Below are positions 709 to 9,410 of a stretch of DNA of 35,845 bases, piece by piece. A program made the position numbers and the translations under genes. The stretch comes from a virus, in the IMG/VR virus record IMGVR_UViG_3300020122_000582, positions 1-35,845 of that record; one strand, 5' to 3'. Numbering within the stretch: the first letter of the stretch is position 1; every line of letters begins with the position of its first letter. The notes under the pieces are model-generated. The model saw only the letters and a list, made by a program, of their open reading frames with translations. It ran no database searches and was not told where the DNA came from.

Positions 709-1065
709 ATGGGATTACCAAAAAAAGGAACTAGACAACCTGGTAGCGGCCGACAAAAAGGCACGCCAAATAAAACCACTCAAGAGCTTCACGACAAATG
801 CGCTGAACTTGGCGTTGATCCTTTCCATGTTTTGCTTCTTTTCGCTAAGGGAGATTACGAAGCCCTGGATTATGAAAAAGAGCGCGTGAAAATGGTTACT
901 GAAAATGGTGACGAAATTACCGAACTCACCATATCGCCGGAGCTTCGCCAAAAATCAGCCAAAGATGCCTGCGAATATTTGCATTCAAAACGCAAATCTA
1001 CCGAGCATTCGGTCGATGACAAAGGCTTTAAGATTTTAATTGAAGATTATTTGGGGAAAAAATGA
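709..1065 (+). CDS. Putative small terminase subunit (TerS-like)
   Basis: 118 residues. The N-terminus is a basic Gly-rich segment (GRQKGTPNKTTQE), followed by a helical region GVDPFHVLLLFAKGDYEAL and a C-terminal ELRQKSAKDACEYLHSKRK stretch. This arrangement recurs in small phage proteins encoded just before the large terminase. The assignment as DNA-recognition subunit rests on position (six genes, all coupled, lead to TerL) and size, not on a diagnostic motif. No good Shine-Dalgarno sequence precedes the ATG at 709. Its stop overlaps the next start as ATGA. Confidence 0.5.
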   Translation: MGLPKKGTRQPGSGRQKGTPNKTTQELHDKCAELGVDPFHVLLLFAKGDYEALDYEKERVKMVTENGDEITELTISPELRQKSAKDACEYLHSKRKSTEHSVDDKGFKILIEDYLGKK

Positions 1066-1229
1066 GGCATAAAATTTGGATAGCATCGTCAGATGCATTT
1101 CAGGCGGCTCTTCTTTTGGCTTGCGCTTGGGGAAAAATAGAATGGTATTGGTTTTGGATTGTTTTATTTCTCCAAAGCCTTGAACATTGGGGGTTTGAAA
1201 CTGAAATGAAAAAAGAGAGGGCACGATGA
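1062..1229 (+). CDS. Tiny membrane protein
   Basis: A 55-residue gene starting inside the previous stop codon (ATGA at 1062-1065) and ending inside the next start (ATGA at 1226-1229). It encodes a hydrophobic, Trp-rich central stretch (AALLLACAWGKIEWYWFWIVLFLQ) broken by one Lys and one Glu, then a basic tail (MKKERAR). One membrane span or a hairpin is likely. The perfect coupling at both ends argues that this short frame is translated. Function unknown. Confidence 0.6.
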   Translation: MRHKIWIASSDAFQAALLLACAWGKIEWYWFWIVLFLQSLEHWGFETEMKKERAR

Positions 1230-1414
1230 GCTTCTATCATTTCGGATTTAATATTTGCGCAGTTTGCTTGGGAGCCGACGACATTTCAAAGCTCGTCCGA
1301 AGAATTATGCGAAAGCCATTAATTGGAATTGATGGCGAAGTTTTAATTCCTAAGGGGCCTCAGAATTTTCATGCTAACTGCTTTAGAGATATGATGCGGA
1401 GACCAAATGGCTGA
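1226..1414 (+). CDS. Small Cys/His protein, possible zinc binder
   Basis: 62 residues in the coupled chain before TerL. It has a CxxC pair (C11, C14) and an HxxC pair (H49, C52), separated by a basic helix and a short beta-like segment (IGIDGEVLIPKG). Two paired ligand sets of this kind usually bind one zinc ion in a treble-clef-like fold. The start overlaps the preceding stop as ATGA; the end overlaps the next gene by 8 nt. Function unknown. Confidence 0.6.
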   Translation: MSFYHFGFNICAVCLGADDISKLVRRIMRKPLIGIDGEVLIPKGPQNFHANCFRDMMRRPNG

Positions 1415-1625
1415 TACTGAAAAATATTGGAAACTTAATAGTCCGGAAGTATGCAGGGATTTTTTAAAGAGTCTGCGTTTTGGCCCAAAGCAATCACGCA
1501 TTACTTGTTTAAAGCAAGATGATGGGCGCGAGCTTACCATTGATGAGGCGCCTGATGACCAGGTCATGGAGGTTGCCAACAATATTGCGCAAGCTCATGA
1601 AAGAGTTCAATCGAGAAAAAAATGA
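1407..1625 (+). CDS. Small hypothetical protein in packaging operon
   Basis: 72 residues, starting at an ATG that overlaps the upstream gene by 8 nt and ending in an ATGA overlap with the gene at 1622. The sequence (YWKLNSPEVCRDFLKSLRF, then ITCLKQDDGRELTIDEAPDD) predicts a small alpha/beta protein with a charged C-terminus. No family recognised. Position suggests co-production with the neighbouring terminase genes. Confidence 0.6.
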   Translation: MADTEKYWKLNSPEVCRDFLKSLRFGPKQSRITCLKQDDGRELTIDEAPDDQVMEVANNIAQAHERVQSRKK

Positions 1626-2332
1626 AATGTCAGAATTTCCTGTGCGTAAAAGAAGCGGAAGCCGGGCAGAAATATTGTTCAAAAGCTCATGCCCCCTTTT
1701 CGCATCTAGAAGGAGGGCACAATATAGATTCAATGAAAATGGGAAAATCTTCTTCGATGGGGCCTGGCGATCGGTCGCAAATTGTATCGAGCGAAAAGAA
1801 AAGCAGCGCACCTATAAGCAAATTAAATATGAGACCGATGCAGAATTTAGAAAGTATACTCGAGAACAACGATGTAAATGGTCCCGCGAAAACAATGAAC
1901 GAGAAAAAAAACGACAACGAAAAAGATATGCACAGATCCCCGATTCTATCAAACGAGAAATTAATAAAATTAGGATGGAAAGAGCCAGAGCAAATCGAGA
2001 GCATACCAGAGAAGTCAATAGAAACTGGTATGCCAACAATCCATCCCGAATCATTAGGCGCGCCGCTCTTGAGTTCGAACGCGGAGAAATTGATATCTTT
2101 GAACTTAATCGACGATGCAGTCGGGCGCTTGCACTCGCAACTGCAAAATCTGACGCCATCCGCAAAGGAGAAAGGCCAAGATATATCTCTTACGGAATGC
2201 CGGAAACTCAATCAAGAGGATCAAGCGATAGCGCAGACAGCATGCCTAACGGCAGTATCGATGGCGAAACTAATTCAATTAAAACTAAACGGTCTTAAGC
2301 TTTTAAGAGAATTAAGTCGATCAAATGATTGA
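1622..2332 (+). CDS. Zinc-finger-like protein immediately upstream of TerL
   Basis: 236 residues. The N-terminus carries C3-x4-C8-x10-C19-x3-H23 (MKCQNFLCVK...QKYCSKAHAPF), which looks like a small zinc finger. The middle is hydrophilic and probably disordered. The last ~80 residues (from LLSSNAEKLISLNLIDDAV to KLIQLKLNGLKLLRELS) are leucine-rich and predicted helical. The gene starts in the preceding stop codon (ATGA, 1622) and its stop overlaps the TerL start by 8 nt, so it is the natural link in the coupled chain. Almost its whole interior is also open in another forward frame (1627-2298); see that entry. Function unknown; a terminase accessory role is inference from position. Confidence 0.6.
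   Translation: MKCQNFLCVKEAEAGQKYCSKAHAPFSHLEGGHNIDSMKMGKSSSMGPGDRSQIVSSEKKSSAPISKLNMRPMQNLESILENNDVNGPAKTMNEKKNDNEKDMHRSPILSNEKLIKLGWKEPEQIESIPEKSIETGMPTIHPESLGAPLLSSNAEKLISLNLIDDAVGRLHSQLQNLTPSAKEKGQDISLTECRKLNQEDQAIAQTACLTAVSMAKLIQLKLNGLKLLRELSRSND
1627..2298 (+). CDS. Possible overlapping gene: very basic, HNH/zinc-finger-like coding frame
   Basis: A 223-codon open frame from ATG 1627 lying wholly inside 1622-2332, one frame back; it is open upstream to 1519. The product is strongly basic and does not look random: Tyr, Trp and Asn recur regularly among Arg/Lys/Glu (RKYTREQRCKWSRENNER, then REVNRNWYANNPSRI), a pattern typical of the basic helical parts of phage HNH or zinc-finger proteins. 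By eye its codons in 2030-2170 resemble those of the confident genes. No strong Shine-Dalgarno serves ATG 1627; an AGGAGG at 1711-1716 lies in the frame without a well-spaced start. It may be a second protein, a product joined to the 1622 zinc finger by frameshifting near the C5T4 run (~1692-1700), or a shadow frame. Confidence 0.4.
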   Translation: MSEFPVRKRSGSRAEILFKSSCPLFASRRRAQYRFNENGKIFFDGAWRSVANCIERKEKQRTYKQIKYETDAEFRKYTREQRCKWSRENNEREKKRQRKRYAQIPDSIKREINKIRMERARANREHTREVNRNWYANNPSRIIRRAALEFERGEIDIFELNRRCSRALALATAKSDAIRKGERPRYISYGMPETQSRGSSDSADSMPNGSIDGETNSIKTKRS

Positions 2333-3797
2333 ACTCAAATTTAGTCTCCAACCAAAGCAACAGGTGCTTTTAAATAAAATGGAAACGACGCCAGTTCTAT
2401 TTTACGGGGGTGCGAAGGGCGGCGGTAAATCTCGTGGTATGCGCGATGTTTTTCTGATAAGGAGATTTAAATATGAGAGAACAACTGCTGCGATTTTTCG
2501 TCAAACCTACCCAGAGCTTGAAGGCAATCATATTGCCCCTCTTTTTAAAAATTACCCGGATCTTCGGCAGTATTATAACGAGTCTAAAAAGAAACTCTCA
2601 TTGCCAAATGGATCTTCGCTCGAATTCTGTTACGCCAAAAGCGATGCCGACCTTGCTAATTACCAAGGACGCGAATGGGATGATCTTGGTATCGAAGAAG
2701 CCGGACAGTGGCGAGAGTCTATGTTTAGGACTCTTCATGGTTCCAACCGAACAGCTACTCCTGGGGTGCATCCGCGATGCCTTCTTACCGGTAACCCAGG
2801 AGGTATTGGACACGGTTGGCTTAAACGAATCTTTGTTGAGAGAAGATTTAACGAAAGAGAACTTCCGCAAGATTACGATTTTATACAAGCGACAGTCGAT
2901 GACAATCCTGCCCTTATGGAAAATGACCCCGCTTACGTTCGCAGGTTGGACGCTGAACCAAACGATGCCCTAAGACGCGCCTATCGTTGGGGTGATTGGG
3001 ATATTTTCGCCGGCCAATTCTTTCAAGAAATTCATCGCGACATTCATTTTATTGACCCTTTCCCAATCCCAACTCATTGGAATCGTTTTGGTGCCTATGA
3101 TTTTGGTTTTAATCATCCAGGAGCTTTTGGTTGGTTCGCAAATAACGAGGATGGCGATACATTTCTCTACCGAGAATTTATTAAGGCTGGGCTAAGGGTC
3201 GATGAATTTGCGAGCGAACTAAATAAATTTGAGGATACATCTCGTCTCTATCCAATAGTAGCGGGTCATGACTGTTGGGCTAAGCGTCAGGCAAAGATCA
3301 ATAAAAAAGAAGTTGATCCCCCAACGATTGCTGAAGAATTTAAAGCCCACGGCATTGTTTTAAAGCAGGCAGTTTTAGACCGCATTGCGGGAGCAGCTCA
3401 GCTTCGCAGCTATCTCGCCTGGAAAGGAAAACGCAATAAAAAGCCAAGGCTTTTTATTTTTAAGTCCTGTCCCATTACTTTTGATGCGCTTACACGAATG
3501 ATTGTAGATCCGGATCGGCCTGAGGATGTTTTGAAAGTAGATGCAACTGAAGGCGACCCAATGACCGGCGACGATCCATATGACATTCTTCGTTATGGTA
3601 TGATGTCACGCCCCAGGATTTCCGATCCACTCCCTAAAAATTATGTTCCAGGTACCAAAGAACATTCCGATCATATGGCGGCCCAGCTATTTGAAAATAC
3701 TGTTTCCAAATTAGAAAAAGATAAAAAGCAGCAAGATGGCGAAGGGTTCAATTGGAATCTTGACAATAGCGGTGTGCCATCATGGAATAAATGGTGA
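2325..3797 (+). CDS. terL: Terminase large subunit (packaging ATPase-nuclease)
   Basis: 490 residues, normal for TerL. The ATPase domain has Walker A GGAKGGGKS at residues 28-36 and Walker B with catalytic Glu at 119-127 (DDLGIEEAG). The RNase H-like nuclease domain shows its acidic positions in NRFGAYDFGFNHP (~255-267), VAGHDCWAK (~315) and GDDPYDILRYG (~430-440). The enzyme pumps DNA into the prohead through the portal and cuts concatemers. Its ATG overlaps the upstream stop by 8 nt, implying coupled translation. A promoter-like motif starts 3 bases after its stop. Confidence 0.95.
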   Translation: MIELKFSLQPKQQVLLNKMETTPVLFYGGAKGGGKSRGMRDVFLIRRFKYERTTAAIFRQTYPELEGNHIAPLFKNYPDLRQYYNESKKKLSLPNGSSLEFCYAKSDADLANYQGREWDDLGIEEAGQWRESMFRTLHGSNRTATPGVHPRCLLTGNPGGIGHGWLKRIFVERRFNERELPQDYDFIQATVDDNPALMENDPAYVRRLDAEPNDALRRAYRWGDWDIFAGQFFQEIHRDIHFIDPFPIPTHWNRFGAYDFGFNHPGAFGWFANNEDGDTFLYREFIKAGLRVDEFASELNKFEDTSRLYPIVAGHDCWAKRQAKINKKEVDPPTIAEEFKAHGIVLKQAVLDRIAGAAQLRSYLAWKGKRNKKPRLFIFKSCPITFDALTRMIVDPDRPEDVLKVDATEGDPMTGDDPYDILRYGMMSRPRISDPLPKNYVPGTKEHSDHMAAQLFENTVSKLEKDKKQQDGEGFNWNLDNSGVPSWNKW

Positions 3798-9259: not shown

Positions 9260-9335
9260 TGGTTGGACGATTTGGACTTGAACCAAAACCTTCTTCTTTA
9301 TGAGAGAAGAGCTCTACCAATTAAGCTATCGTCCA
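9260..9335 (-). tRNA. tRNA with CAT anticodon (Met, or Ile2 if lysidine-modified)
   Basis: Complete 76-nt cloverleaf on the minus strand: acceptor TGGACGA/TCGTCCA, T8-A9, D-arm GCTT...GAGC with AATTGGTA loop, anticodon stem CTTCT/AGAAG with loop CT-CAT-AA, T-arm TTTGG-TTCAAGT-CCAAA, discriminator A, and an encoded CCA. It lacks the GGG/CCC anticodon stem of initiators, so it is an elongator Met or an Ile2 (AUA-reading) tRNA. It runs against all neighbouring genes. Confidence 0.93.
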
Positions 9336-9336
9336 A

Positions 9337-9410
9337 TGGCTGCGAGAAAAGGAATCGAACCTTTGCCTAAGCTTTAACAGAGCTTCGCACGACCTTCATG
9401 CTATCTCGCA
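9337..9410 (-). tRNA. tRNA-Asn (GTT)
   Basis: Complete 74-nt cloverleaf on the minus strand: acceptor TGCGAGA/TCTCGCA, D-arm GCAT...GTGC with a short 7-base loop, anticodon stem AAGCT/AGCTT with loop CT-GTT-AA, T-arm AAAGG-TTCGATT-CCTTT, discriminator G (as expected for Asn), encoded CCA. Only one base separates its CCA from the 5' end of the downstream CAT tRNA, so both would come from one precursor. Confidence 0.93.

Follow-up and report, generated by a model that had tools for sequence, protein, structure and literature searches.

A candidate pair of same-strand overlapping genes between the terminase genes of a tailed phage

The window analysed here is a whole stretch of 35,845 bases from the IMG/VR virus record of an uncultivated phage. 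Just upstream of the terminase large subunit gene (terL), two long reading frames, designated A and B, are open on the same strand and share a stretch of 672 nt. The features of this locus are the following:

709 to 1065, plus strand: probable terminase small subunit gene (TerS), with homologues upstream of terL (30 matches in the collected loci) and a match to phrog_15261 (E 3e-10; unknown function)
1226 to 1414, plus strand: small gene of 62 aa with C-x2-C and H-x3-C, overlapping the gene at 1407-1625 by 8 nt
1407 to 1625, plus strand: gene directly upstream of A, 72 aa, with an ATGA overlap with A
1616 to 1622, plus strand: A AAA AAA heptamer in the frame of gene 1407-1625, directly 5' of its stop codon
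1622 to 2332, plus strand: frame A, 236 aa, with an N-terminal Cys/His motif, a middle part of low prediction confidence and a C-terminal amphipathic helix
1622 to 1690, plus strand: Cys/His motif C3-x4-C8-x10-C19-x3-H23 of frame A, recognized from the sequence, with putative zinc binding
1627 to 2298, plus strand: frame B, 223 aa from an inner ATG, 672 nt, net charge +25
1692 to 1700, plus strand: C5T4 run, proposed as a frameshift site, reading C CCC TTT at 1693-1699 in frame A
2325 to 3797, plus strand: terL (PF04466, 2.6e-09; phrog_979, 4.8e-37)

The start codon of frame A overlaps the stop codon of the upstream gene as ATGA (1622-1625), and its TGA stop codon (2330-2332) lies past the terL start (2325), which results in an overlap of 8 nt. 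The ATG of frame B (1627) is located 5 nt downstream of the start of frame A (1622); frame B is stop-free from 1513 and contains alternative starts at 1519 (1519-2298, 259 aa) and 1597. Relative to A, B is in the +2 frame; relative to B, A is in the +1 frame. Re-inspection of the sequence confirmed the coordinates of both frames, the ATGA start, the 8-nt terL overlap, the Cys/His motif and the C5T4 run as described in the original prediction, which had also rightly noted that part of the antisense strand is stop-poor; this strand is free of stops for 174 codons at 1690-2211 and for 125 codons at 1815-2189. Promoter and terminator matches within 1000-2500 were no more frequent than expected by chance.

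Searches based on TerL yielded a phage clade with mostly 56-72% identical TerL proteins. Homologues of the TerS gene, a GNAT-like gene and the gene at 363-674 are present among these relatives, and no homologues of the genes 1226-1414 and 1407-1625 were detected in the collected loci. The slot between TerS and TerL is either empty in the relatives or includes small genes, methyltransferases or HNH endonucleases, often arranged in chains with short overlaps, and the chain of 1226-1414, 1407-1625, A and terL in the window is of the same short-overlap type. In 49 of 54 relatives, the end of the gene preceding terL falls between -2 and +29 nt relative to the start of terL; the respective values are +8 for A and -27 for B. 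Since the terL start (ATGATTGA) encodes stops in both other frames, the end of A at terL is partly automatic; the informative part of the spacing is that B ends early, which is rare for real upstream genes.

Several other arrangements were observed in the relatives and in the window. The TerS-TerL slot of the relative L007 (TerL 58% identical) contains a C5 cytosine methyltransferase gene (phrog_363, 4.6e-69) and, inside it, a second same-strand frame of 264 codons that matches a phage family of its own (phrog_1008, 8.8e-18), the two frames being located at L007 457-1269 and 461-1255; this is a better-supported dual-coding candidate than A and B. In L130, the ORF at 1803-2507 has a TerS-like start followed by an N-terminal piece of TerL, and the next gene (2500-2859) is a second TerS-like gene preceding a full terL, apparently the result of a partial duplication or fusion of terminase genes. 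The DNA methyltransferase-like genes L089 2703-3620 and L128 2650-3642 include a stretch whose other frames encode simple repeats (AAVGAV..., SSCSSC...), which suggests a tandem-repeat insert. Within the window, adjacent tRNA genes for Met (CAT) and Asn (GTT) were found at 9260-9410 on the minus strand, whereas the structural genes lie on the other strand. There is an overlap of 140 nt between the GNAT-like gene 71-502 and the gene 363-674, each of which has homologues in relatives. A 166-codon frame at 2473-2973, open on the same strand within terL (overlap 498 nt), is probably a shadow frame.

No homologues of A or B were found in any of the collections searched, namely viral contigs, phages and plasmids (tblastn) and all collected loci (unmasked tblastn), and this was also the result for the C-terminal part of A, the overlap region 1798-2160 starting in frame B, and a joined protein consisting of the Cys/His finger and B. 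The profiles of Pfam, PHROGs and NCBIfam gave no significant match to A, B or the joined protein, including the HNH, endonuclease and methyltransferase profiles for A and B, and none to the Cys/His motif of A. A weak match of B to phrog_24129 (E 0.005-0.01) was rejected, as it was not reproduced by a search with the whole record. The closest relative, L086 (TerL 72% identical), carries just 118 nt upstream of terL, and the likeness of its 39-residue tail to A and B was no better than that of shuffled sequences (P 0.14 and 0.85, respectively).

Folding of both proteins with AF2, performed without an alignment, predicted long helices at residues 46-179 of B and disorder at its ends; the pLDDT, averaged by block, was 75-96 for residues 51-180 and 49-53 for residues 31-50. 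The model of A was mostly of low confidence, with a helix at residues 198-234 reaching 57-71. Long charged helices can easily score well in structure prediction, and the confident helices of B provide weak evidence of a supporting kind. A search of a viral fold library with the predicted B structure returned no match below E 0.27. Accordingly, the profile, tblastn and fold searches lent no support to the proposed resemblance of B to HNH or zinc-finger proteins of phages, and the high arginine content of B is that usually seen in +2 shadow frames of this phage.

The absence of stops from frame B was compared with expectation under the assumption that A alone codes. Keeping the A protein fixed and drawing synonymous codons according to the codon usage of the phage gave 24.1 expected stops in B, permutation of A's own synonymous codons 11.0, and shuffling of A's codon order 13.1. 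The observed number is zero, and none of the 20,000 simulations was stop-free under any of the three null models (P<5e-5). For the other genes of the same phage, the shadow frames contain no fewer than 4 stops per 223 codons. Moreover, no same-strand pair overlapping by at least 450 nt was present among 266 ORFs of at least 200 aa in 557 kb of GC-matched collected loci. The stretch had been picked out of 35 kb for being doubly open, a selection effect, and the result for B given A survives any correction for this choice. These data clearly indicate that B is open beyond what A explains and is more than a shadow of A, and they bear out the earlier assertion that its stop-free run is improbable by chance.

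The composition of the two frames differs. The third codon positions of A contain 0.18 T, compared with a range of 0.28-0.51 across 244 windows taken from other genes. Arginine accounts for 3.0% of A, and leucine, arginine and serine together for 0.258; the real frames of the phage show 2.3% and 0.173 (maximum 0.233), and +1 shadows 9.3% and 0.328 (minimum 0.275), so that A lies outside the range of the shadows. Accordingly, the composition of A is gene-like and favours A as a gene. Frame B, with 16.6% arginine and a combined fraction of 0.287, falls among the +2 shadows (mean 13.3% arginine, maximum 0.178; combined 0.307), which suggests that B is the more recent of the two. In agreement with this assignment, +2 de novo frames have been described as more basic and less hydrophobic (PMC8227390). 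A codon model placed both A and B between real genes and shadows. Two further measures were set aside: enrichment of leucine, arginine and serine, which has been described as a signature of gene overlap (PMC6195259), was dropped as evidence of dual coding because shadow frames are enriched too, and synonymous codon log-ratios did not discriminate, simulated shadows reaching similar values.

These observations are best explained by A and B being two true genes that overlap on the same strand and occupy the variable slot between TerS and TerL, a reading to which we assign a probability of about 0.55; this level of confidence reflects the selection effect on the result for A given B described below. 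The pair accounts for the depletion of stops, the distorted third positions of A, its gene-like composition and operon fit, and the shadow-like composition of B. Of the explanations initially put forward, overprinting is the best supported; the data reject B as a plain shadow frame and disfavour A as one.

The strongest competing explanation, which we nevertheless regard as unlikely, is that B alone codes, for an arginine-rich cargo protein that has a codon usage of its own, and that A is a +1 shadow that stays open because B contains few NTA and NTG codons. Permutation of B's own codons leaves 1.6 stops expected in A (P 0.11) and none over 1702-2295, the third-position composition of B resembles that of the neighbouring genes 71-502 and 709-1065, and B is the frame that is predicted to fold. 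With phage codon usage, however, 3.7-4.8 stops are expected in A (P 0.003-0.012), and the openness and coding score of A were jointly matched by none of 5,000 simulations, compared with 10% under B's own usage. If A shaped the codons of B, the null based on own usage may be too lenient; if B is of outside origin, the one based on phage usage may be too strict. Moreover, the composition of A is unlike that of a +1 shadow, and B as the sole gene would stop 27 nt before terL, unlike the upstream gene in 49 of 54 relatives. Taken by itself, the result for A given B (about 0.01) would fail correction over approximately 50 gene frames, and the case for A as a gene therefore rests on the composition and operon arguments. 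Accordingly, coding by B alone is disfavoured and A is probably more than a shadow of B, with weaker proof than that obtained for B given A.

Somewhat less likely still is a single gene split over the frames by one or two assembly indels or by recoding, with the finger in A, the body in B and perhaps the tail in A. The better-predicted parts do tile in this manner, comprising the motif in A (1622-1690), the helices in B (about 1765-2165) and the helix in A (2213-2329), and the own-usage permutation is compatible with such a gene (0.37-0.76 at most switch points). With phage usage, however, the chance openness of the unused frames amounts to 1e-4 to 3e-3, and the joined protein lacked a significant family match as well. 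The C5T4 run, at which a frameshift joining the finger to the basic domain had been proposed, makes a weak site, as C CCC TTT in frame A lacks the X XXY YYZ form of a canonical -1 slippery heptamer. A separate candidate recoding site is the A AAA AAA heptamer at 1616-1622, where a -1 slip could possibly fuse gene 1407-1625 to frame A; the fold downstream of it is only mildly stable (z -1.59). Coding by A alone, with B open by chance, is very improbable: the region is T-poor (T content 0.196, as low as in other parts of the window) and the residues of B are those of a +2 shadow, but 11 stops would be expected even with the T-poor codons of A and other shadow frames of this phage do not go below 4.

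With regard to the overlapping pair, A would be an ordinary operon member, translation passing to it from gene 1407-1625 via the ATGA overlap and from it to TerL via the 8-nt overlap. B would initiate at ATG 1627, probably within the initiation region of A, and we infer that both frames are translated. The B product is predicted to be basic, largely helical and probably nucleic-acid-binding. Regarding the direction of overprinting, A is probably the original gene of the pair. The residue make-up of B, being that of a +2 shadow frame, points to its birth inside A as the most likely origin, and we tentatively propose that B is a young gene that arose de novo by overprinting in a tailed phage and was kept open along 223 codons. 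The later retention of a stop-free B would have bent the codon usage of the older gene A, reshaping its third codon positions with a decrease of T to 18%.

Overprinted viral genes such as E and K of phiX174 likewise combine two long same-strand frames with distorted codon usage, with one frame enriched in the residues that characterise de novo frames, as is the case here (reviewed in PMC8227390). The A/B pair differs from E and K in that it occurs in a tailed phage, spans nearly the whole of both genes, has no homologues in the collections searched that could reveal constraint, and is a candidate predicted from the sequence. The methyltransferase and HNH endonuclease cargo genes of the relatives occupy the same position as A and B and are similarly chained by short overlaps, but their profiles are not matched by A or B. 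In the relative L007, the TerS-TerL slot likewise contains two long frames on one strand; in contrast to A and B, both match known phage families, the proteins are unrelated to those of the pair, and the GC content of the overlap is 0.53.

Same-strand overlaps that exceed 200 codons and take up nearly all of both genes appear to be rare, as judged from their absence among the 266 ORFs of the GC-matched loci, and standard gene-calling programs would be apt to omit one frame of such a pair. If both proteins are made, the locus would represent the birth of a phage gene caught in the act, with the codon choice of the older gene visibly distorted, and it would suggest the slot preceding terL as a place where new genes arise.
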